DNA from: a virus
Virus record (IMG/VR): IMGVR_UViG_3300028194_000701
Span: 1-21,150 of that record
Direction: 5' to 3' (one strand)
DNA length: 21,150 nt
Part shown: piece by piece, positions 6,155 through 20,130 of the stretch
Layout: each line of letters starts with the position of its first letter
How positions within the stretch are numbered: position 1 is the first letter of the stretch
Position numbers and translations under genes: made by a program
Notes under the pieces: model-generated
Told to the model about the DNA's origin: nothing
The model's input: only the letters and a program-made list of their open reading frames with translations
Database searches by the model: none

Positions 6155-7015
6155 ATGATCAAAAATACAGAAGATGGAGCCAGCTTTAGAATATTAGGTA
6201 TTGGAAAGTTATCTGAAGGGCAAAAAAAAAGAAGAGCTAAAAGGGACGAGAAGAAAAACTCAGGCAGAAAAAGAATTAAACTAAAGAGAAAAGGCAAAAA
6301 AGAACAAGCTGAAGATGCTAAAAAAGGGTTTCTAGCAGGAGCCAAGAAGCTAAAAGATAGTACCAAAACAGCTGAAGCAAGTACTAAAACACCTACTGAT
6401 GCTAAAGCTAAAGCAAGCACTAAAACAGCGTCAGCTGGTAAAGAAGATGGAGCTAGTGCTTTTCTTTGGATGGGCAAGAAAAACAAAGCTCAAAAAGCAA
6501 GACAAAAAAGAAGAGGTCAAAAAAAGAAAGACAAAGATCAATTTGGAGGTGGTAAAAAAGGCAGAGCAGCTAAAGCGGCTTTTATAGCTGAAAAAGCTGC
6601 AGAAGCACAAATGAATAGAGCTGGTAAGAGTATGTCCTCGTCAAGTGAAGGAGAGGAAAAACCAATGGATGTGAACAGTGGAGCTAGCATGAGATCAAGA
6701 ACTAACATGGCTGTCCCAGCTAAAAAGTTAATGAAAATACAGTACGGGTCTTCTATGAAAGATAATGATTATGGAGCTTCTATGTACGGTAAAAAGCATG
6801 GATCTTCTATGAACGCATATCAAGATAAAGAAGCATCGATGGATGATTACTCTCACGAGAAGAAATTAAAAGCTGATGGAAGGTATGAAGCTGCTCATGG
6901 AAAGATGGCTAACGCTAAAAACGATTTTAACCACGCTCATGCATTAAAAAAAGATGCTAAGCACGACGCTAAAGGCAGACATTCTATCATGAAGCACATG
7001 AGGGGGTTTAAATAA
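6155..7015 (+). CDS. Lys-rich basic protein with seven GASM-type motifs, 286 aa
   Basis: A very basic, low-complexity protein with clusters such as KKRRAKRDEKK and RQKRRGQKKK. Short motifs recur: DGASF (7-11), DGASA (98-102), SGASM (175-179), YGSSM (197-201), YGASM (206-210), HGSSM (215-219) and EASM (226-229). The C-terminal third is His/Lys/Ala-rich (KKLKADGRYEAAHGKMANAK). No catalytic domain is seen. The composition suits a nucleic-acid-binding or internal virion protein, and the motifs are shared with six other proteins in the window. It is coupled by TAATG to the next gene and follows the TATAAATAA element. Function is unknown; the assignment as a virion component is inferred. Confidence 0.7.
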   Translation: MIKNTEDGASFRILGIGKLSEGQKKRRAKRDEKKNSGRKRIKLKRKGKKEQAEDAKKGFLAGAKKLKDSTKTAEASTKTPTDAKAKASTKTASAGKEDGASAFLWMGKKNKAQKARQKRRGQKKKDKDQFGGGKKGRAAKAAFIAEKAAEAQMNRAGKSMSSSSEGEEKPMDVNSGASMRSRTNMAVPAKKLMKIQYGSSMKDNDYGASMYGKKHGSSMNAYQDKEASMDDYSHEKKLKADGRYEAAHGKMANAKNDFNHAHALKKDAKHDAKGRHSIMKHMRGFK

Positions 7016-7542
7016 TGAGTTTAAAAACTAACAGATACGGAGCAAGTCAAAGAAATGGGCTTACTCCTGGCGGTAAGACAAATAGGTCTATGACTAATTT
7101 AGGCACTAAAACCATTAATGCGGCTGCTAATTCAAACCAAAAGCCACAATACAGTGGATCAGGTGATAATTACAGAGATGCGAATAATAATAAGGTTTCA
7201 GGACTTCAAGTTGATGAAGGTAGATTGTCTTCTGTTGTTAGAAAATCACCTGAAAGACCTCACGTTGTGGCTAGCCCTGGCGCTCTTAAAAATCAAGGTG
7301 GTATAACTGAAAAGCTTTATTTAGATGGTAAGCCTGAAATGAAAGCAATGAGAAGAGGAGAAAAACTTACTCCTGCCAAGAAAGCAATGAAAAGAGGTGA
7401 AAAGCTTATTCCTATTAAAAAAGCAATGAGAGGTGAAAAGCTTATTCCTGCTAAAAAAGCAATGAAGACAGATGTTAAGAAAGGTAAACCAACTGCACAA
7501 GCTATTGTCATTGACATGAGTAATAAAAAATCTAAAACTTAA
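7015..7542 (+). CDS. Basic protein with YGAS motif and 13-residue repeats, 175 aa
   Basis: The N-terminus MSLKTNRYGASQRN contains one copy of the shared motif at residues 8-11. The central part is polar and Asn-rich (QYSGSGDNYRDANNNK). Residues 110-151 hold a tandem repeat: KAMRRGEKLTPAK, KAMKRGEKLIPIK and KAMRGEKLIPAK (one residue shorter), then KAMK. The protein is strongly basic and probably unstructured. It begins on the last base of the previous stop codon (TAATG), so the two basic proteins are produced together. No family recognised. Confidence 0.65.
   Translation: MSLKTNRYGASQRNGLTPGGKTNRSMTNLGTKTINAAANSNQKPQYSGSGDNYRDANNNKVSGLQVDEGRLSSVVRKSPERPHVVASPGALKNQGGITEKLYLDGKPEMKAMRRGEKLTPAKKAMKRGEKLIPIKKAMRGEKLIPAKKAMKTDVKKGKPTAQAIVIDMSNKKSKT
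7342..7467 (+). repeat. 39-base tandem repeat inside basic protein
   Basis: Two 39-base units, one 36-base unit and a partial unit encode K-A-M-[RK]-R-G-E-K-L-x-P-x-K. The third unit lacks one codon. Units two and three are the most alike, which suggests recent slippage or unequal recombination. Confidence 0.75.
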
Positions 7543-10490: not shown

Positions 10491-12038
10491 ATGCAAGAAT
10501 TAAAGTTAGTTAAAAATCTGGCTTTTGGTGATGGTGCCAGAAGTCAGATATTAACTGGAGTTGAAAAACTTACTAATGCAGTAGGGTCAACTTTAGGAGC
10601 AAGTGGTAAATGTGTTATATTAGAAGATGCAAATGGCATGCCACAGATAACAAAAGATGGAGTAACAGTGGCTAATGCAGTTACATTACAAGACTCTTTA
10701 GAAAATATTGGAGCTACGTTAATAAAACAAGCAGCACAAAGAACAGTATCAGATGCTGGCGACGGCACTACAACTGCTACGGTTTTAGCAAAAGCTATTT
10801 TAGATGAAGCTTACAAACATAGCGAATTAGATACTTCAAGAGAATTAAAAGAAGGTATTGACTCAGGTGTTAAAAAAGTTATAGCTTATTTAGAAAAAAC
10901 ATCAAAGAAAGTAAAAGGTAAAAAAATAGATCAAGTGGCTACAATATCAGCCAATAACGATAAAAAGCTTGGGAAGATCATAGGGGAAGCATTTAGATTA
11001 GTAGATGAAACAGGTATTGTTATGATGGAAACAAACGAACAACCTGAGACAATAGTTGAGCTAATAGAAGGCGTACAATATGATCAGCCATTGAAAAACA
11101 ACCACTTTATTACCAACAATGAAAAGGGCACGGCTGAACTTGAAAATCCGTTGATTCTAATTGTAGAGTCAGTAATACCCAACGTGCGGAAGATTCAGTC
11201 AGTTCTTGAACATGTAATAAAGACAGGTAAAAGTTTGCTTATAATAGCAGATGTTGACCCGCAGGTAGTTTCAGCACTTTCAATGAACAAAGTAAAAGGA
11301 AACATAAAGGTTAACATTATAGATGCACCGGTTTATGGTATTAGTAAAAAGGATACTCTAAATGATTTATGCGCGGTTACTGGTGCTACACTTATTAATG
11401 AAGATCTAGGTGATGACATGGACATAATAAGTCCAGAGCATTTAGGTAGCTGTTTAAAAGTTATAACTAATCACGAGGAGACAATAATGAAGGTTGATTT
11501 ATCTAATAATAAAGATGTTGAAGATATAACTAACTTATTAGAAGCTCAAATAAAAGAAACTAAAAATCCAAATTTAATTATTAGACTAGAAAGACGTTTA
11601 GCTAAATTAAAAGCTAAAGTTGCTACAGTTAAAATTGGCGCTAACTCTGAAATAGAATTAAAAGAAAAAAGAGATAGAGTAGAAGATGCTATTTGTGCTA
11701 CAAAAGCTGCGATCAAAGAAGGTATAGTGCCAGGAGGCGGTATAGCTTTATTAAACGCTGCACAGCAATTAAAACCAATGTCAATAGGCGAAGAAGTACT
11801 TTACTGTGCTATTAAAGAGCCTTATAAATTGATACTTAAAAATGCTGGCGTTGAAGATTATAAAACACCAGAAGTAAAAGGCATGGGATTGGATGTGGTT
11901 ACAGGAAATACGGTTGATATGGTAAAAGCCGGAATTATAGATCCTTTGCTAGTTACTAAAAGTGCGCTAATGAACGCAGCCTCAGTAGCCACAACAATAT
12001 TATCTACTGATTGTGTTATTAATAATGTTAGAGCATGA
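10491..12038 (+). CDS. groEL: GroEL-type chaperonin (Cpn60), 515 aa
   Basis: Full-length group I chaperonin, which forms ring complexes that fold proteins with ATP and a GroES lid. Diagnostic features: ITKDGVTVA with Asp56, DAGDGTTTATVLA with Asp91, RVEDAICATKAAIKEGIVPGGG with Asp399 and the terminal Gly triplet. These correspond to the nucleotide- and Mg-binding and hydrolysis residues of E. coli GroEL (Asp52, Asp87, Asp398), so it should be active. It is about 30 residues shorter than E. coli GroEL (548), in part because the Gly-Gly-Met tail is missing. The LGPKG loop reads LGASG. It overlaps groES by four bases, in the order groEL-groES, the reverse of bacterial operons. Its location among fibre and virion genes suggests it folds phage structural proteins. 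Confidence 0.95.
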   Translation: MQELKLVKNLAFGDGARSQILTGVEKLTNAVGSTLGASGKCVILEDANGMPQITKDGVTVANAVTLQDSLENIGATLIKQAAQRTVSDAGDGTTTATVLAKAILDEAYKHSELDTSRELKEGIDSGVKKVIAYLEKTSKKVKGKKIDQVATISANNDKKLGKIIGEAFRLVDETGIVMMETNEQPETIVELIEGVQYDQPLKNNHFITNNEKGTAELENPLILIVESVIPNVRKIQSVLEHVIKTGKSLLIIADVDPQVVSALSMNKVKGNIKVNIIDAPVYGISKKDTLNDLCAVTGATLINEDLGDDMDIISPEHLGSCLKVITNHEETIMKVDLSNNKDVEDITNLLEAQIKETKNPNLIIRLERRLAKLKAKVATVKIGANSEIELKEKRDRVEDAICATKAAIKEGIVPGGGIALLNAAQQLKPMSIGEEVLYCAIKEPYKLILKNAGVEDYKTPEVKGMGLDVVTGNTVDMVKAGIIDPLLVTKSALMNAASVATTILSTDCVINNVRA

Positions 12039-12295
12039 AAGCAGTAGGTAAATTTATAGTTATAGATCCAGTCAAGGAAACTGATGTAACTACAAAAGGT
12101 GGTTTAATCTTAGCTGAAAAGCAAAGAGAAGATATTAGATATAGAAGAGCTAAAGTCATAGAACCTGGCTCTGAAGTATCTGTATTAAAAAAAGGTGATG
12201 AAATTTATTATGATAAATCAGCTGGATTTAATATTGAAATAAATAAAGAAGAATATAAAGTTATTAAAGAGTTTGATGTAGTTATTATACTATGA
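12035..12295 (+). CDS. groES: GroES-type co-chaperonin (Cpn10), 86 aa
   Basis: A short Cpn10 protein: FIVIDPVKETDVTTKGGLIL at residues 7-26 contains the mobile loop with G-G-L-I-L in place of the usual G-G-I-V-L GroEL-binding tripeptide. It is followed by RRAKVIEPGSEVSVLKKGDEIYY and a closing strand (EYKVIKEFDVVIIL). It is about 11 residues shorter than E. coli GroES, mostly around the roof loop. The ATG overlaps the groEL stop (ATGA), so the two are made in linked amounts and presumably form a matched phage chaperonin pair. Confidence 0.9.
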   Translation: MKAVGKFIVIDPVKETDVTTKGGLILAEKQREDIRYRRAKVIEPGSEVSVLKKGDEIYYDKSAGFNIEINKEEYKVIKEFDVVIIL

Positions 12296-12727: not shown

Positions 12728-13855
12728 ATGGCTTACAAACAACCTAAAAAAACACCAATGCATAATGATGGTGCTTCAGAACCTATTACTTTAGCCGTAT
12801 TAGCTGCTTTAAAAGGTGCTAAATTAATAGCAGGCTTAGTTAAAGGTGGAAAAGCCTTGGCAGCTGGAGCAAAAGCTGCTAAAGGAGCTGGACTATTAGC
12901 TAAGGCAGGTAAAGGAGGTAAACTATTAACCAAAGCAGGTAAAGTTGCAACAAAAGCAGGAAAAGTTGGTAGTAAAACTAAAAAAGGAACAAGGTTGTTA
13001 AATAAAAGTAAAAATATTATAAACAAAGTAGATAAAGTTAAAGAGAAAGGTAGTAAGCTTATTGAAAAAAGCAACCAAATGAAACAAAAAGCCCAAAAAA
13101 TAGGGGGGAAATTAGATAAAACCATCAAAAACGTCCAGCAAGGAACTAGCAAAGGCCAAGTTAAAATTGATAAAATATTCGGTAAAGTAGAAAAAGCTAC
13201 AGGTGGCAAGTTAGGAAATGTTGATGAAATGAAAGAAAAAGCAGGACAAGGAATAGCATCGAAAGTTGGGGATAGTACAACTAAAGGCATAGCAAAAATT
13301 CAAGAAAATAATTCACCTGCTGATCCAGATCAGTTTAGAAAAAATGAAGATAGCCCAACAATGCCTCAAGGCCATAGTTATACTAATCCTTCAGGCGTCA
13401 GTATGAGTAAAAAATATGGAGCTTCAAGCACCCAGATACAGCAAGGAACTGAAGCTTCTGGCAATGTTCCAGCTACCATGACTAATATGACATCAGGAAC
13501 AGCTTTAGATCCTAGTAATATAAGAAAACAGACTAGTGTACACAAGTTTTTAAATAATTTTGAAGCTAACGCAAACGTTGGAGGAATAAATATACCTTTA
13601 GGTCCTTTAACTAGATTAACACACGCTCTTGCTACAACAAAAATTGACGCTGTTAAAAAAGAAAGGTATAAAAAAAGATTAGCTGAAATAGAAAAAAGCA
13701 AACCTATATCGGGAAGAAAGCTGTCTGCTCAAGTAGAAGCCAATACCGATAAAATGAGTAAAATTGCTAAAAACATAAAAATAGATACTAAACAAAAAGC
13801 CCCAATAAAATCTGGCTCATTAAATTTAGGTAAACAATTAAAATTAAAAAAATAA
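12728..13855 (+). CDS. Lys/Gly/Ala-rich basic virion-type protein with GAS motifs, 375 aa
   Basis: Residues 1-17 end in HNDGAS. Residues 18-80 are a Gly/Ala/Lys/Leu-rich amphipathic stretch (LAALKGAKLIAGLVKGGKAL and onwards), reminiscent of membrane-active peptides. Residues 80-190 are Lys-rich helical repeats (NKVDKVKEKGSKLIEKSNQM). A Pro/Ser-rich linker carries SGVSM (222-226) and YGAS (230-233). The C-terminal region has a short hydrophobic patch (GGINIPLGPLTRLTHALATT) and more Lys-rich helix. It could be an internal or ejected virion protein that contacts membrane or DNA; that is inference from composition. No known domain. Confidence 0.6.
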   Translation: MAYKQPKKTPMHNDGASEPITLAVLAALKGAKLIAGLVKGGKALAAGAKAAKGAGLLAKAGKGGKLLTKAGKVATKAGKVGSKTKKGTRLLNKSKNIINKVDKVKEKGSKLIEKSNQMKQKAQKIGGKLDKTIKNVQQGTSKGQVKIDKIFGKVEKATGGKLGNVDEMKEKAGQGIASKVGDSTTKGIAKIQENNSPADPDQFRKNEDSPTMPQGHSYTNPSGVSMSKKYGASSTQIQQGTEASGNVPATMTNMTSGTALDPSNIRKQTSVHKFLNNFEANANVGGINIPLGPLTRLTHALATTKIDAVKKERYKKRLAEIEKSKPISGRKLSAQVEANTDKMSKIAKNIKIDTKQKAPIKSGSLNLGKQLKLKK

Positions 13856-14190: not shown

Positions 14191-14859
14191 ATGGCAGAAA
14201 TACCTCAATCGCAAGATCCTAATGCAAACGCACTAACTCCAGGCGCAAACAATAGCATGGCCCAAATACCACAAAACATGCAAAGTGAAGCTGAGTCTAA
14301 TTTCGCAAGCAACACTGGATGGAATTATAACTGGAAAAGTGATAAAAATAACTACAACGTCAGCAATAGTGGGGAAGTTAGTGTTGGAATGGATGACCCA
14401 AGGTTTAATCCAAATATTGATGATCCAAGAAAAAAAAGATCTGTTTTTTTAAACAAAAGCGCAGAATCAAATAAAAATCCTTTTGCAAATCTTGCACAGG
14501 ACAAATTGAATAATTTTAATAATGAAACTAAAAATATACAAATAAGAAAATCAATGGACATGAATAATATGGATAATAGATATGCTTTGTCACAAGATCA
14601 AGCAGGAACTACTAATGCTGGTAGTGATATGACAGGTGATGATATGACAGGTGATGATATGGCAATCGGTGGTGGAACTTCTAATACTCCATTTATACCT
14701 ACAGACCCTATGAATAATCCAGGAACAAACGGCACTGGTTCTGCAAACCCTACTTTTTCAAGTACAGATGTTAATAATATAAGAGGAATTAATCAAGGTG
14801 CACCAATGAGTATGATTAATAAATATGGATCATCAAGAATTAAAAATAGAAAAAAATGA
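14191..14859 (+). CDS. Asn/Gly/Met-rich hypothetical protein with C-terminal YGSS motif, 222 aa
   Basis: A low-complexity, probably disordered protein rich in Asn, Asp, Gly and Met. It contains DDPRFNPNIDDPRKKRS near residue 70, a short tandem repeat (DMTGDDMTGDDM, from 15-base DNA repeats at 14626-14655) and a Pro/Gly/Asn-rich stretch. It ends SMINKYGSSRIKNRKK, so one member of the shared motif sits near the very C-terminus followed by a basic tail. It overlaps the amidase by four bases. Function unknown; the motif links it with the Lys-rich virion-type proteins. Confidence 0.6.
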   Translation: MAEIPQSQDPNANALTPGANNSMAQIPQNMQSEAESNFASNTGWNYNWKSDKNNYNVSNSGEVSVGMDDPRFNPNIDDPRKKRSVFLNKSAESNKNPFANLAQDKLNNFNNETKNIQIRKSMDMNNMDNRYALSQDQAGTTNAGSDMTGDDMTGDDMAIGGGTSNTPFIPTDPMNNPGTNGTGSANPTFSSTDVNNIRGINQGAPMSMINKYGSSRIKNRKK

Positions 14860-15609: not shown

Positions 15610-15740
15610 TGGCTGAAGAATTCAAACCCCATATGATGTATAAAGACTGTAAAGAAGTAATGGCTAAAACCATGAAAAAACATTTGTCCTTAAAGAAAAA
15701 GGGTTATGACCATAAAAAATCTAAAAACTGTACAAAATAA
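15609..15740 (+). CDS. Small Lys-rich hypothetical protein, 43 aa
   Basis: A 43-codon frame reads MAEEFKPHMMYKDCKEVMAK and onward, ending SKNCTK. Both ends overlap neighbours by one base (TAATG), strong evidence for a real gene. It is rich in Lys, His and Met and has two Cys. I recall similar HMM-x-K...HLxLKKKGY patterns in small marine phage proteins, but no function is known to me. Confidence 0.6.
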   Translation: MAEEFKPHMMYKDCKEVMAKTMKKHLSLKKKGYDHKKSKNCTK

Positions 15741-16006
15741 TGGCAAGTAAAAGAGGTAAATCCAAAAAGAAAAATCCTTGTTGGAAAGGTTACACAGCAA
15801 TGGGTAGTGACGGTAAAATAGTCATGAAGAAAAAAGGTAAAAAAATGGTTCCCGCATGTAGACCTATTAAAGGTAAAAAAGATGGTGCTTCTATGGACTT
15901 AAAAACTCTATCAGGAATTGTTCCAGCTTTAGCAATTAGGGAAAGAGTAAAAGGAAAAGCTGACAGATTAAAAAATGCTAACTTCACTGTTAAAAAAAAT
16001 GGATAA
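15740..16006 (+). CDS. Small basic protein with CWKGY motif and DGASM motif, 88 aa
   Basis: The N-terminal half holds NPCWKGYTAMGSDGK and KKMVPACRP (Cys14 and Cys40), a pattern of the C-W-K-G-Y...K-x-V-P-x-C type that appears in marine phage proteins and may bind metal or form a disulfide. DGASM follows at residues 48-52, then a helical Lys/Arg-rich end. It starts on the stop of the previous gene. Function unknown; part of a run of small basic proteins from 15609 to 17268. Confidence 0.65.
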   Translation: MASKRGKSKKKNPCWKGYTAMGSDGKIVMKKKGKKMVPACRPIKGKKDGASMDLKTLSGIVPALAIRERVKGKADRLKNANFTVKKNG

Positions 16007-16447: not shown

Positions 16448-17053
16448 ATGGAAGAAAAAACTAAAAAAGTAGTTACAAATAAAAAAGGAACTACAAAATC
16501 AAAAAATATATCTGGAAAGAGATATGATAGACTTGCCAATAGATCATTTAACCAACTGGATAAAGGTAAAAAAGTTAAATTGCTTGAAAAAGAAGGTGTA
16601 CACTCTCCTAGTGCTGGTATATTTGGATCAGCTCCAGGGAAGACAGCGGTAGGTGAAATTAAAAAACTTGGAAAAGGTGTTGGTGGAAGAAAAGTAAAAT
16701 TTACTAAAGAAGATGATGTGTATGATTCTAAAGGATATAGAAAAAGCAAACCAAAAAAAGACGGTGCTTCAATGAAAAAGTTTCCAGAAATAAAAGAAAA
16801 GAACGAAGGTAAGTTTACTAAATGGGTAGAAAAGAATATGGGTGGTATGGACACTTGTAAAGCTGCTAGTAAAGTTATGAGATCTCGTACTAAAAAGTAT
16901 TCTCCAGCTGTAGTTAAAATGGCTAACTATGCTAATAACTTTGGTTGTAAAACTAAAAAAGAAGATGGTGCTTCAGTTCCGTTAAAAGGTAAACAAAAAA
17001 ACTTACCAGACGCTTTAAAGTCTAAAATATTAGCTTCACCAGGTAAAAAATAA
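16448..17053 (+). CDS. Lys-rich protein with two DGAS motifs, 201 aa
   Basis: A basic protein in three parts. Residues 1-100 are Lys-rich, with a GVHSPSAGIFGSAPGKTAVG segment. DGASM occurs at 105-109. Residues about 118-168 form a more folded Cys-containing region (EGKFTKWVEKNMGGMDTCKA, then VVKMANYANNFGCKTK). DGASV follows at 173-177, before a short tail. The motif copies flank the folded segment, as if marking its boundaries. No known enzyme motif. It lies within the series of small basic genes. Confidence 0.65.
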   Translation: MEEKTKKVVTNKKGTTKSKNISGKRYDRLANRSFNQLDKGKKVKLLEKEGVHSPSAGIFGSAPGKTAVGEIKKLGKGVGGRKVKFTKEDDVYDSKGYRKSKPKKDGASMKKFPEIKEKNEGKFTKWVEKNMGGMDTCKAASKVMRSRTKKYSPAVVKMANYANNFGCKTKKEDGASVPLKGKQKNLPDALKSKILASPGKK

Positions 17054-17055
17054 AT

Positions 17056-17268
17056 ATGAGTAAATTAGGTAATAAAAGTAAATGTGGAAAAGCTTGGAAA
17101 GCTTGGGAAGCTGGTTATGCAGAAAAAGAAGGTGGTAAAGAAGAAGCTGCTAGAGAAAGAAGAGAGTTTTATTGCGATAAAGGTACAATAAAAATGCGTC
17201 CTTCTACCGATGCTGATGTTCCTTTAACTGACAAACAAATAAAAGCTGAAAAAAAGAATAAAAAATAA
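17056..17268 (+). CDS. Small charged hypothetical protein, 70 aa
   Basis: Helical, highly charged protein (KCGKAWKAWEAGYAEKEGGK, EEAARERREFYCDKG), with two Cys about 30 residues apart and a Lys-rich end. It sits two bases after its upstream neighbour and three before its downstream one. It lacks the GAS motif. No family recognised. Confidence 0.6.
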   Translation: MSKLGNKSKCGKAWKAWEAGYAEKEGGKEEAARERREFYCDKGTIKMRPSTDADVPLTDKQIKAEKKNKK

Positions 17269-17271
17269 ATA

Positions 17272-17994
17272 ATGGGTTTTAAACTAAAAGGTGCACCATA
17301 CGATGAATCTAATATGAACATAGCTGTTTACAAGAAGGATTTAACAGACGGATCGATTGGTAAATCAAACCACACCGGTATAATAGTAAAAAGTGGTATT
17401 AGCCCAGAAGAAGAACAACATGTTATAGCTCACGAAAAAGTACATCAAGAGCAACAAGCTAAAGGTGAATTAGATTACGATAAAGAAAATTTTTATTGGA
17501 AAGGTAAAACTTATCCTAGAGCGAACTTAAACGAACACAACGAACAATTACCTTGGGAGAAAGAAGCTTATAAGGCTAGTGAAAAATCAAGGAACAAAGA
17601 ATCAGAAGAAATGGGATCAACAAAATTTAAATTAAACGGTCACAGGGGCAATAACAAACCTTTTAGCCAAATGACAAACAGAGGTTTAATAGGAGCTTCT
17701 ATGAACGATACTGACGGCTATAGTCAACCTGACTACGGTTCATCTATGTATGACGAAGATGGTGCTTCAGTTGATCCTCCTAAAAAAAATAAAACTTTAA
17801 AAAGACCTGCTGGTAAGTATGATCCTAACTTTAAAGGTGATGAAGGTGTAAAAGGTGGTCATAGAGTAGAAATAACAAGAAAAGATGGTTCTAAAAAAAT
17901 AGGAACAGAAGTGAATAACACTATATATATCAATGGAAGACCAGTTTCAAAAAAAGATATTATGAAAGCAGGTCAACGTATAACATCAGCTTAA
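17272..17994 (+). CDS. HEXXH metalloprotease-like protein with three GAS motifs, 240 aa
   Basis: Residues 46-63 read EEEQHVIAHEKVHQEQQA and contain the zincin signature HEXXH (His54, Glu55, His58). Then come GELDYDKENFYWKGKTYPR and LPWEKEAYKASEKSR, where Glu96 or Glu98 may be the third zinc ligand, as in short zincins of the DUF4157 type. After residue 115 the character changes to flexible, with IGASM (140-144), YGSSM (155-159) and DGASV (163-167). Residues about 195-235 are a basic beta-rich segment (GGHRVEITRKDGSKKIGTEV). It could cleave virion proteins, host envelope or peptidoglycan-linked protein; the substrate is not evident. Its stop overlaps the next ATG (TAATG). Confidence 0.7.
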   Translation: MGFKLKGAPYDESNMNIAVYKKDLTDGSIGKSNHTGIIVKSGISPEEEQHVIAHEKVHQEQQAKGELDYDKENFYWKGKTYPRANLNEHNEQLPWEKEAYKASEKSRNKESEEMGSTKFKLNGHRGNNKPFSQMTNRGLIGASMNDTDGYSQPDYGSSMYDEDGASVDPPKKNKTLKRPAGKYDPNFKGDEGVKGGHRVEITRKDGSKKIGTEVNNTIYINGRPVSKKDIMKAGQRITSA

Positions 17995-19335: not shown

Positions 19336-19537
19336 CATAGGAGCTGATTACAAAAACGAAGCTATGCATTATGCTACTGGTCAAGAGGTATATGGAAAGC
19401 ACGTTATTAGTGATATTCTTTTTGAAGATAAAGATAAATCGTATAATATATATATAAGCAAAAACGATGAAGTTTTACCTTGGAAAAAGTTTAATTCTAA
19501 TATGGCAGTTTCTGTAGAGTACGATCTTAAGTATTGA
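19310..19537 (+). CDS. Small conserved phage protein, 75 aa
   Basis: Two ATG codons stand in tandem at 19307 and 19310; I use the second (MSKKIRKISIGADYKNEAMH), and the alternative adds one Met. The motif K-I-S-I-G-A-D-Y-K-N-E-A-M-H-Y-x-x-G-Q, then LPWKKFNSNMAVSVEYDL, is one I recall from marine phages, usually upstream of the terminase region. Beta-rich, no catalytic motif. The function is not known to me. Confidence 0.65.
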   Translation: MSKKIRKISIGADYKNEAMHYATGQEVYGKHVISDILFEDKDKSYNIYISKNDEVLPWKKFNSNMAVSVEYDLKY

Positions 19538-20130
19538 TGAAAAGCTTGTATAGCTTTATCGTAAAACCTTTAAATGAAAGATACGATAATGTAAGAAATA
19601 TAGATAATAAAGAACTTATTATCAACACAGGTATTGAAGATCATCAATTTATTAGTAAAAAAGCAGTTGTAGTTTCTACTCCAGCTGCTTTTAAAAGTAA
19701 AGTAAATATAGGAGATGAAGTTTATATTCATCATAACATATTTAGAAGATGGTATGATCAAAAAGGAAGAGAGCGTAATAGTTCAACTTATTTTAAAGAT
19801 GATCTTTATTTTGTTTCACCTGAGCAGATTTATATGTATAATTTAAAATCACATTTAAACTACTGTTTTATAAAACCAATAAAAAACCAAAACTTTTTAG
19901 ACAACATAAAAGAACAACCCAATGTTGGTATAGTAAAATATACTAATAAGACCTTAGAAGCGCTAGGAATAACATCTAGAACACTTATTACGTTTACCCC
20001 AAACTCTGAATTTGAGTTTATTATAGATGGTGAACGACTCTATTGTATGAAATCAAATGATATAGCTTTAACCCATGAATATAAAGGAAACAAAAAAGAA
20101 AATAATCCAAGCTGGGCAGAAAGCAGTTGA
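19537..20130 (+). CDS. Tandem GroES-like protein (possible co-chaperonin), 197 aa
   Basis: The ATG at 19537 overlaps the previous TGA (TGATG); a TTG one codon upstream is less likely. Two halves resemble the Cpn10 fold. Residues about 5-100 read SFIVKPLNERYDN, AVVVSTPAAFKSKVNIGDEV and YIHHNIFRRWYD. Residues about 108-182 read NYCFIKPIKNQ, VGIVKYTNK, LITFTPNSEFEFIIDGERLY and CMKSNDIAL, matching the Cpn10 order of first strand I-x-P, a G-x-V strand, a G-D-x-V-type turn and the closing Y-x-M-x-x-x-D-I. The sequence ends NPSWAESS. I recall phage relatives annotated as co-chaperonins, but this is not verified. It may act with the phage GroEL, or use the fold structurally. Confidence 0.55.
   Translation: MKSLYSFIVKPLNERYDNVRNIDNKELIINTGIEDHQFISKKAVVVSTPAAFKSKVNIGDEVYIHHNIFRRWYDQKGRERNSSTYFKDDLYFVSPEQIYMYNLKSHLNYCFIKPIKNQNFLDNIKEQPNVGIVKYTNKTLEALGITSRTLITFTPNSEFEFIIDGERLYCMKSNDIALTHEYKGNKKENNPSWAESS

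Follow-up and report, generated by a model that had tools for sequence, protein, structure and literature searches.

The zincin gene and its phage

The window, by which we mean the whole stretch of DNA analysed, comes from an uncultured marine bacterial virus; its IMG/VR record is linear and 21,150 bases long. Its genes also occur on longer contigs together with genes for a terminase, a portal and a capsid protein related to those of Flavobacterium elemovirus, Cellulophaga phi38:1 (Pervagoviridae), Maribacter phage Panino and MW202828, and this kinship places the window virus, by relatedness, among the podoviruses of Bacteroidota. The capsid protein search returned 85 records; G012 (129,537 bases) has three capsid-protein matches and G020 (105,284 bases) has two, and both may be joined genomes. 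In the fetched parts of the four named genomes (50,000 of 60,850, 50,000 of 77,160, 44,534 of 72,534 and 47,846 of 59,846 bases), the zincin profile had no match and neither of the tags described below, GAS and SP, was enriched; the phage collection searched contained no cultured relative with tags. The window virus encodes its own GroEL and GroES, beside which a second window protein matches the GroES-like PHROG phrog_13932, and it has two tail proteins that both match one phi38:1 intramolecular-chaperone (Peptidase_S74-type) tail protein (Pfam was run on the first of the two in Table 1). No match to ORF6155 or ORF18445 was found in the phage collection, and a pattern search for relatives of ORF12728 returned none.

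Table 1. Features of the window and of the zincin protein (G[AS]S-type tags are given by amino acid position)
Feature	Position	Strand	Remarks
Tail protein	5046..5672		Matches phi38:1 tail protein
Basic late protein	6155..7015	+	Six G[AS]S at aa 8, 99, 176, 198, 207, 216
Late protein	7015..7542	+	YGASQ at aa 9; 4 relatives found, all in GAS-group contigs
Tail protein	7553..10108		Matches the same phi38:1 tail protein
GroEL, GroES and GroES-like protein	10491..12295 and 19534..20130		
Basic late protein	12728..13855	+	DGASE at aa 15, YGASS at aa 231
Late protein	14191..14859	+	YGSSR at aa 213, near C-terminus
CWKGY-domain protein	15740..16006	+	DGASM at aa 49, where domain ends
FPEIK/KMANYANNFGCK-domain protein	16448..17053	+	DGASM at aa 106, DGASV at aa 174
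KCGKAW-domain protein	17056..17268	+	No tag in window
Zincin protein	17272..17994	+	240 aa, ATG start; from ORF list, structure model and relatives
Zincin head, about aa 16-109	17317..17598	+	AlphaFold2 pLDDT mostly 68-83
HEKVH, aa 54-58	17431..17445	+	Zinc-site motif in zincin head
Tag IGASM, aa 140-144 (G = aa 141)	17689..17703	+	
Tag YGSSM, aa 155-159 (G = aa 156)	17734..17748	+	
Tag DGASV, aa 163-167 (G = aa 164)	17758..17772	+	
C-terminal small SH3-like beta domain, aa 196-240	17857..17991	+	pLDDT about 78-86

The gene at 17272-17994 had been described from its letters as encoding a HEXXH protease-like protein that itself carries three GAS-type motifs, and HEKVH, IGASM, YGSSM and DGASV are all present as described. 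Five residues of the head (H54, E55, H58, E96 and A99) are invariant among 52 sequences, and E96 and A99 belong to an ExEA motif (aa 96-99) in which a glutamate would, by analogy with IrrE, be the third zinc ligand. HExxH is kept in 123/123 relatives, in 116 of them together with ExEA and in the other seven alone. An AlphaFold2 model built on 52 sequences (mean pLDDT 63.5) has a zincin-like fold. Residues 143-167 and 170-192, between the head and the small beta domain, have pLDDT below 50, and this low-confidence linker (aa 143-192) holds the second and third motifs and starts just after the first, in agreement with the flexible middle in which the preliminary description had placed them.

The best structural comparison of the head, with IrrE/PprI (3dte), gave Z 7.0 and rmsd 3.0 over 83 residues, a score below the 8 advised for the tool. 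The best Foldseek match in the PDB had E 0.12, while the phage SprT-like model A0A6J5QDW5 matched with E 2e-5 and rmsd 2.0. On these models the head resembles IrrE/SprT gluzincins and the protein is a predicted metalloprotease. For the C-terminal domain the matches, to SH3-like barrels, are weak (Z at most 3.5). The protein matched no Pfam family and, by sequence, no PDB entry; it matches PHROGs 16532 and 10499, both of which are without an assigned function.

The first zincin search returned 81 proteins. Thirteen are long forms (240-496 aa), each with one or more G[AS]S, and the other 68 are short (95-136 aa) and have none. Alignment of the long forms shows about 140 common residues, then the tag, then tails that differ between relatives; one tail is common to the zincins of L005 and L012, whose heads share 83% and 63% identity with that of the window. 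A divergent zincin in L235 (494-1666; HEDNH, a 390-aa form without GAS) has a tail resembling those of L005 and L012. Further zincin relatives (L370-L379) lie in MAG contigs labelled Bacteroidetes, and also Woesearchaeota and Alphaproteobacteria, which may be phage contigs binned with cells.

Two dialects of a short tag

Among the 29 plus-strand window genes picked by us, [DY]G[AS]S occurs 13 times in seven genes, compared with a mean of 0.5 and a maximum of 4 in 2,000 shuffles that keep the composition of each protein, which bears out the earlier remark that several late proteins share the motif. The looser G[AS]S occurs 23 times in 11 of the 29 genes (shuffle mean 7.1, maximum 19), and some of these are ordinary glycine-rich tail or GroEL sites. 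Nine minus-strand ORFs were checked and lacked the tag motifs. Within the zincin protein itself, three G[AS]S arose in 0.12% and two [DY]G[AS]S in 0.025% of 20,000 shuffles. A model of ORF16448 (mean pLDDT 55.7) places both of its tags in low-confidence segments, one on each side of a helical domain, and the KCGKAW domain is fused via a GAS tag to a second domain in L011 and L106.

Relatives of the zincin were used to ask how far protease and motif go together, since the preliminary description had set protease relatives in motif-free phages against a link between them. Each of 12 long-form loci contains [DY]G[AS]S 2-8 times, where 0.03-0.8 would be expected; at the 68 short-form loci it occurs once (7 loci) or never (61 loci), so a protease tied to GAS in all phages is rejected. 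Yet phages with the largest short-zincin subtype have a different tag in their small late proteins, SP[FLM], at the sites that bear GAS in GAS phages. SP[LFM] occurs 4-7 times at 16 loci found through ORF16448, where GAS occurs 0 or 1 times. The window and 13 further GAS-group loci have SP[LFM] 0 or 1 times, no more than chance would give.

An earlier pooled scan had assigned some group B loci by their SP counts, a bias that is removed by grouping contigs by zincin subtype alone. With the zincins left out and 14,000 patterns scanned in this way, GAS ranked first for the zincin subtype of the window (15 of 61 non-redundant small basic ORFs, 3.4 expected, p 2.8e-6) and SP[MLFIV] ranked first for the largest other subtype (57/192 ORFs, 16.3 expected, p 3.3e-15). 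None of the 14,000 patterns was significant in three further subtypes (22, 8 and 7 contigs), and the pooled scan of phages without zincin (group D) yielded no tag (best p 1.6e-5 among 14,000 patterns). Unbiased 3-mer scans of single contigs are under-powered and often rank other patterns first; GAS came first only in G002 and SPF only in G017, and not in the window or G001. Such scans leave some room for chance, or for the composition of lysine- and glycine-rich proteins, as the source of the motifs; this is barely credible, however, given shuffles that preserve the composition of each protein and pooled scans that are significant after correction for 14,000 patterns.

The clearest sign of dialects is the swap of GAS in one lineage for SP in another at homologous sites. 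KDGASADVRKT(V)GKGKNF corresponds to NSPFAKKGDVRRTIGKGKNF and SPLARVRKTTKGKGRNF, and HASKAEQ-GAS-KKFPEIK corresponds to MK-SPF-YKKGFPEIK. GAS flanks the module GKQKNLPxxLKxxIL on either side in four of the five listed forms from the GAS group; in SP phages the flanking tags are SP types, and in L111 both are SPA. This tag-flanked module recurs in different proteins (L004, L006, L011, L012, L106, L111, L163 and L166). Pelagiphage homologues of one tagged domain begin at the place of the tag and lack it. In uncultured podoviruses allied to elemovirus and phi38:1, small basic late proteins carry a tag of which GAS is one dialect. The GAS tag tends to be preceded by D (34/72) or Y (8) at position -1 and followed by M (26/71) at +3, and in SP tags L, F, A or M comes next. 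Tags within 10 aa of the N-terminus make up 31 of 97 SP tags (7.6 expected) and 7 of 72 GAS tags, the remainder being internal or C-terminal, and some tags are spaced 3-6 aa apart. GATAM recurs in L341 (three times) and L350 (twice) and is perhaps another dialect, as may be AAQQKG in L120 and GPKM-type repeats in L036 and L052; AAQ, GATAM, SPA and GPKM are suggestive as further dialects, being not significant after correction. The open-licence literature, as far as it could be searched, contained no description of such tag dialects, which may be in print elsewhere.

The zincin, CWKGY and FPEIK proteins each consist of a conserved domain, then the tag, then phage-specific tails, and L005 and L012 share a tail across diverged heads. 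This arrangement would suit a soluble hinge at domain joints, where tails are exchanged, with no reader and with dialects spread by copying and recombination. We consider this unlikely. Within a contig one dialect is used throughout, in genes to either side of GroEL, with GAS tags beyond GroEL numbering 27 against 2.5 expected (8 contigs), the N-terminal SP tags have no module ahead of them, and a hinge leaves the tie to zincin subtype described below without a reason. Several synonymous codons are also used at the motif, on which ground a DNA-level repeat was rejected as the main cause of GAS: in 98 distinct contexts the glycine codons (GGT 39, GGA 36, GGC 17, GGG 6) are near the usage of the contigs, although the match is inexact, with alanine GCT (59/81) and serine TCN (79/98, about 62% in contigs) over-used.

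Zincin subtype, virion genes and dialect

Because the first GAS loci had mostly been found via the zincin, contigs were resampled with the GroES-like protein, GroEL and ORF7015 as queries, giving 87 contig clusters, 51 of them with a zincin in view. Other proteins were enriched in GAS in 8/8 contigs with a GAS-type zincin and in 0/43 with other zincins (Fisher p 1.6e-9, as with our other p-values too small because contigs are related); six of the eight and nine of the 43 were already known, the only new GAS-type contigs being L302 and L353, and the GAS-type reference zincins were defined from GAS contigs. GAS enrichment was seen in 2 of 36 resampled clusters with no zincin in view. Across all sampled contigs it was found in 16 of 18 clusters with a GAS-type zincin, three of which repeat a contig or near copy, versus 0 of 102 others. 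L124 (no zincin in 17 kb) and L248/L249 (hits outside tagged proteins) are labelled GAS on little.

Three GAS-type zincins (L125, L302 and L353) are themselves without GAS. Nine residues separate the subtypes, of which 28, 32, 34 and 35 lie at the strand region before the active-site helix and 59 adjoins H58; this clustering near the active site comes from one clade and is only suggestive. The zincin N-terminus FK[LM]K was rejected as a dialect tag, being kept in all groups.

Several genes near the zincin do not follow the dialect, whereas the zincin subtype does. In a first tree set, with loci picked by hand and GAS loci taken mostly from the zincin query, the zincin groups the GAS loci as a clade but GroEL, ORF12292 and the holin do not, and a GAS clade is rejected for ORF12292 (p-AU 0.025), for the holin (2.9e-6) and for GroEL (5.3e-4). 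The GroEL result recurred in the resample (1.3e-4), where near-identical non-GAS rows were thinned from 55 to 43 and those rows include short contigs with little or no tag region, such as L308 and L349. A GAS clade is also rejected for the amidase (6e-31) and ORF16256 (0.019), both of which sit between tagged genes, and the GroES-like tree mixes GAS loci with loci that have another dialect or none that can be detected. A GAS clade is not rejected in a larger zincin tree (p-AU 0.11, two changes needed), in which at least one GAS-type zincin row is labelled non-GAS for lack of data in that contig; the DUF6321 tree gave p-AU 0.094 with only 10 rows.

Virion genes behave differently from these neighbours. 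When six GAS and 10 other contigs picked by hand were compared with G002, the zincin head showed a wider gap than any other gene present in several contigs of each group (similarity 0.78 in GAS contigs, n=6, versus 0.26 in others, n=8); portal, scaffold, capsid and some tail proteins showed smaller gaps, and GroEL, the amidase and ORF12292 none. Lysis and chaperone genes thus do not go with the dialect; the zincin and the virion module do. A tag that docks cargo, by binding the scaffold, the portal or the inner capsid face and so carrying small basic proteins into the head, is quite possible, although on balance we do not expect it; the zincin would then be a passenger inherited with the virion module. 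The five GAS genomes form one clade in the scaffold tree (100/97), the four that have the gene form one in a quick tree of a tail protein (97), and portal similarity to G002 is 0.84 (n=3) in GAS contigs against at most 0.67 (n=7) in others. With the initial labels the capsid protein rejects a GAS clade (p-AU 0.009) and the portal forms none (p-AU 0.27); both group the GAS phages (portal 100/100, capsid 100/99) after L249 and L280, in which the tag region lies out of view, have been set to GAS and G021, G028 and G030 are dropped. N-terminal tags and tags 3-6 aa apart would suit multivalent docking, and a tagged protein of G013 falls in one family with phi38:1 gp80, whose annotation as structural was made by similarity. 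Crassvirus virions hold cargo proteins (PMC10172136), and in encapsulins short peptides or disordered ends serve to load cargo (PMC8346489). Against docking, L235 combines a GAS-type portal N-terminus with a different, tailed zincin without GAS, and shows no GAS in the short stretch before the zincin that is in view; moreover, docking alone leaves the sharpest gap, at the zincin subtype, unexplained. The portal N-termini of the GAS phages G001, G002, G003, L125 and L236 read ...NGSSFPDQVV, and those of others NSSF, YSSF or NSIF.

A candidate reader and its place among known systems

We favour, at a probability of roughly 40%, a recognition tag on small, basic, partly disordered late proteins that is read in trans, with the zincin as the leading candidate reader. 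The tag is spelled roughly [D/Y]-G-[A/S]-S-[M/V] in the lineage of the window and SP[F/L/M/A] in sister lineages. One phage factor probably reads it in trans, and all tagged proteins would therefore need to change spelling together. The zincin would fit this role best because its subtype shows the sharpest tie with the dialect, its subtype residues cluster, suggestively, near the active site and zincin-less phages show no tag in the pooled scan. During head assembly or after ejection, it would bind or cut the tagged linkers of putative virion proteins, the long form would also act on its own linker, and this action would position or release the modules flanking the tag. Docking to the head comes close behind the zincin as reader, and both may be true.

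The preliminary description, which these results support in part, had left two possibilities, a protease that recognises the motif or one more protein that carries it. A subtype that follows the dialect is expected from the first, because an enzyme reading the motif would give it, but inheritance with the virion module gives the same pattern and fits too, because the scaffold and, after relabelling, the portal and capsid group the GAS phages. The scaffold follows GAS no less closely than the zincin, and the portal and capsid almost as closely, which argues against the zincin as reader; the N-terminal SP tags, where a cut would remove next to nothing, argue against cleavage and for docking. A lineage-specific peptide code, in which small internal proteins are tagged, a dedicated zincin reads the tag, and code and reader switch together from one close relative to another, is a more doubtful proposal, and could be likened to a private sorting and processing system for packaged proteins.

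How tailed phages select and process the proteins packed beside their DNA is known for few systems. If the reading is right, dialects tied to the subtype of one small metalloprotease would offer a natural experiment on recognition and predict which zincin should act on which peptide, and by its sequence alone the tag would point out the internal virion proteins of uncultured phages of Bacteroidota.

Herpesvirus assemblin cleaves at sites between A and S. By analogy, the tag could be the site of another maturation protease that cuts between GA and S, and the small residues at its centre, D or Y at -1 and M at +3 would agree with this, but we regard it as very unlikely: none of ten head-region queries of G002 is named a prohead protease by PHROGs, the tag as such was not seen in the capsid protein or scaffold, and tags near a terminus would be pointless sites. 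The part searched contained no serine prohead protease, and the window model has a zincin-like fold with HExxH, not the serine fold of assemblin-like prohead proteases. In T4, capsid targeting sequences and prohead protease sites are short peptides on internal head proteins. The tags described here are likewise short peptides, but they lie anywhere in the protein, mostly internally or C-terminally and not at the T4-type N-terminal position, often occur several times, and vary in spelling by lineage.

Encapsulins load cargo into an HK97-fold shell by short motifs or disordered termini (PMC8346489); their targeting peptides are terminal and their shells cellular, whereas the window group consists of phages with a terminase and a portal, for which docking is a proposal. 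Crassviruses are podoviruses of Bacteroidota whose virions store phage proteins, and the available parts of PMC10172136 describe no such tag on these cargo proteins. The Pervagoviridae member phi38:1 has two small basic proteins annotated as structural, gp69 and gp80; relatives of gp80 occur in SP phages, although phi38:1 itself, unlike them, is without the tag. The predicted enzyme is closest to the IrrE/PprI (ImmA/IrrE, M78) and SprT-like gluzincins, including small phage SprT-like proteins, with which it has HExxH, ExEA and a small head in common, and to which the long-form window zincin, with no Pfam family and no PDB sequence relative, adds a tagged linker and exchanged tails.
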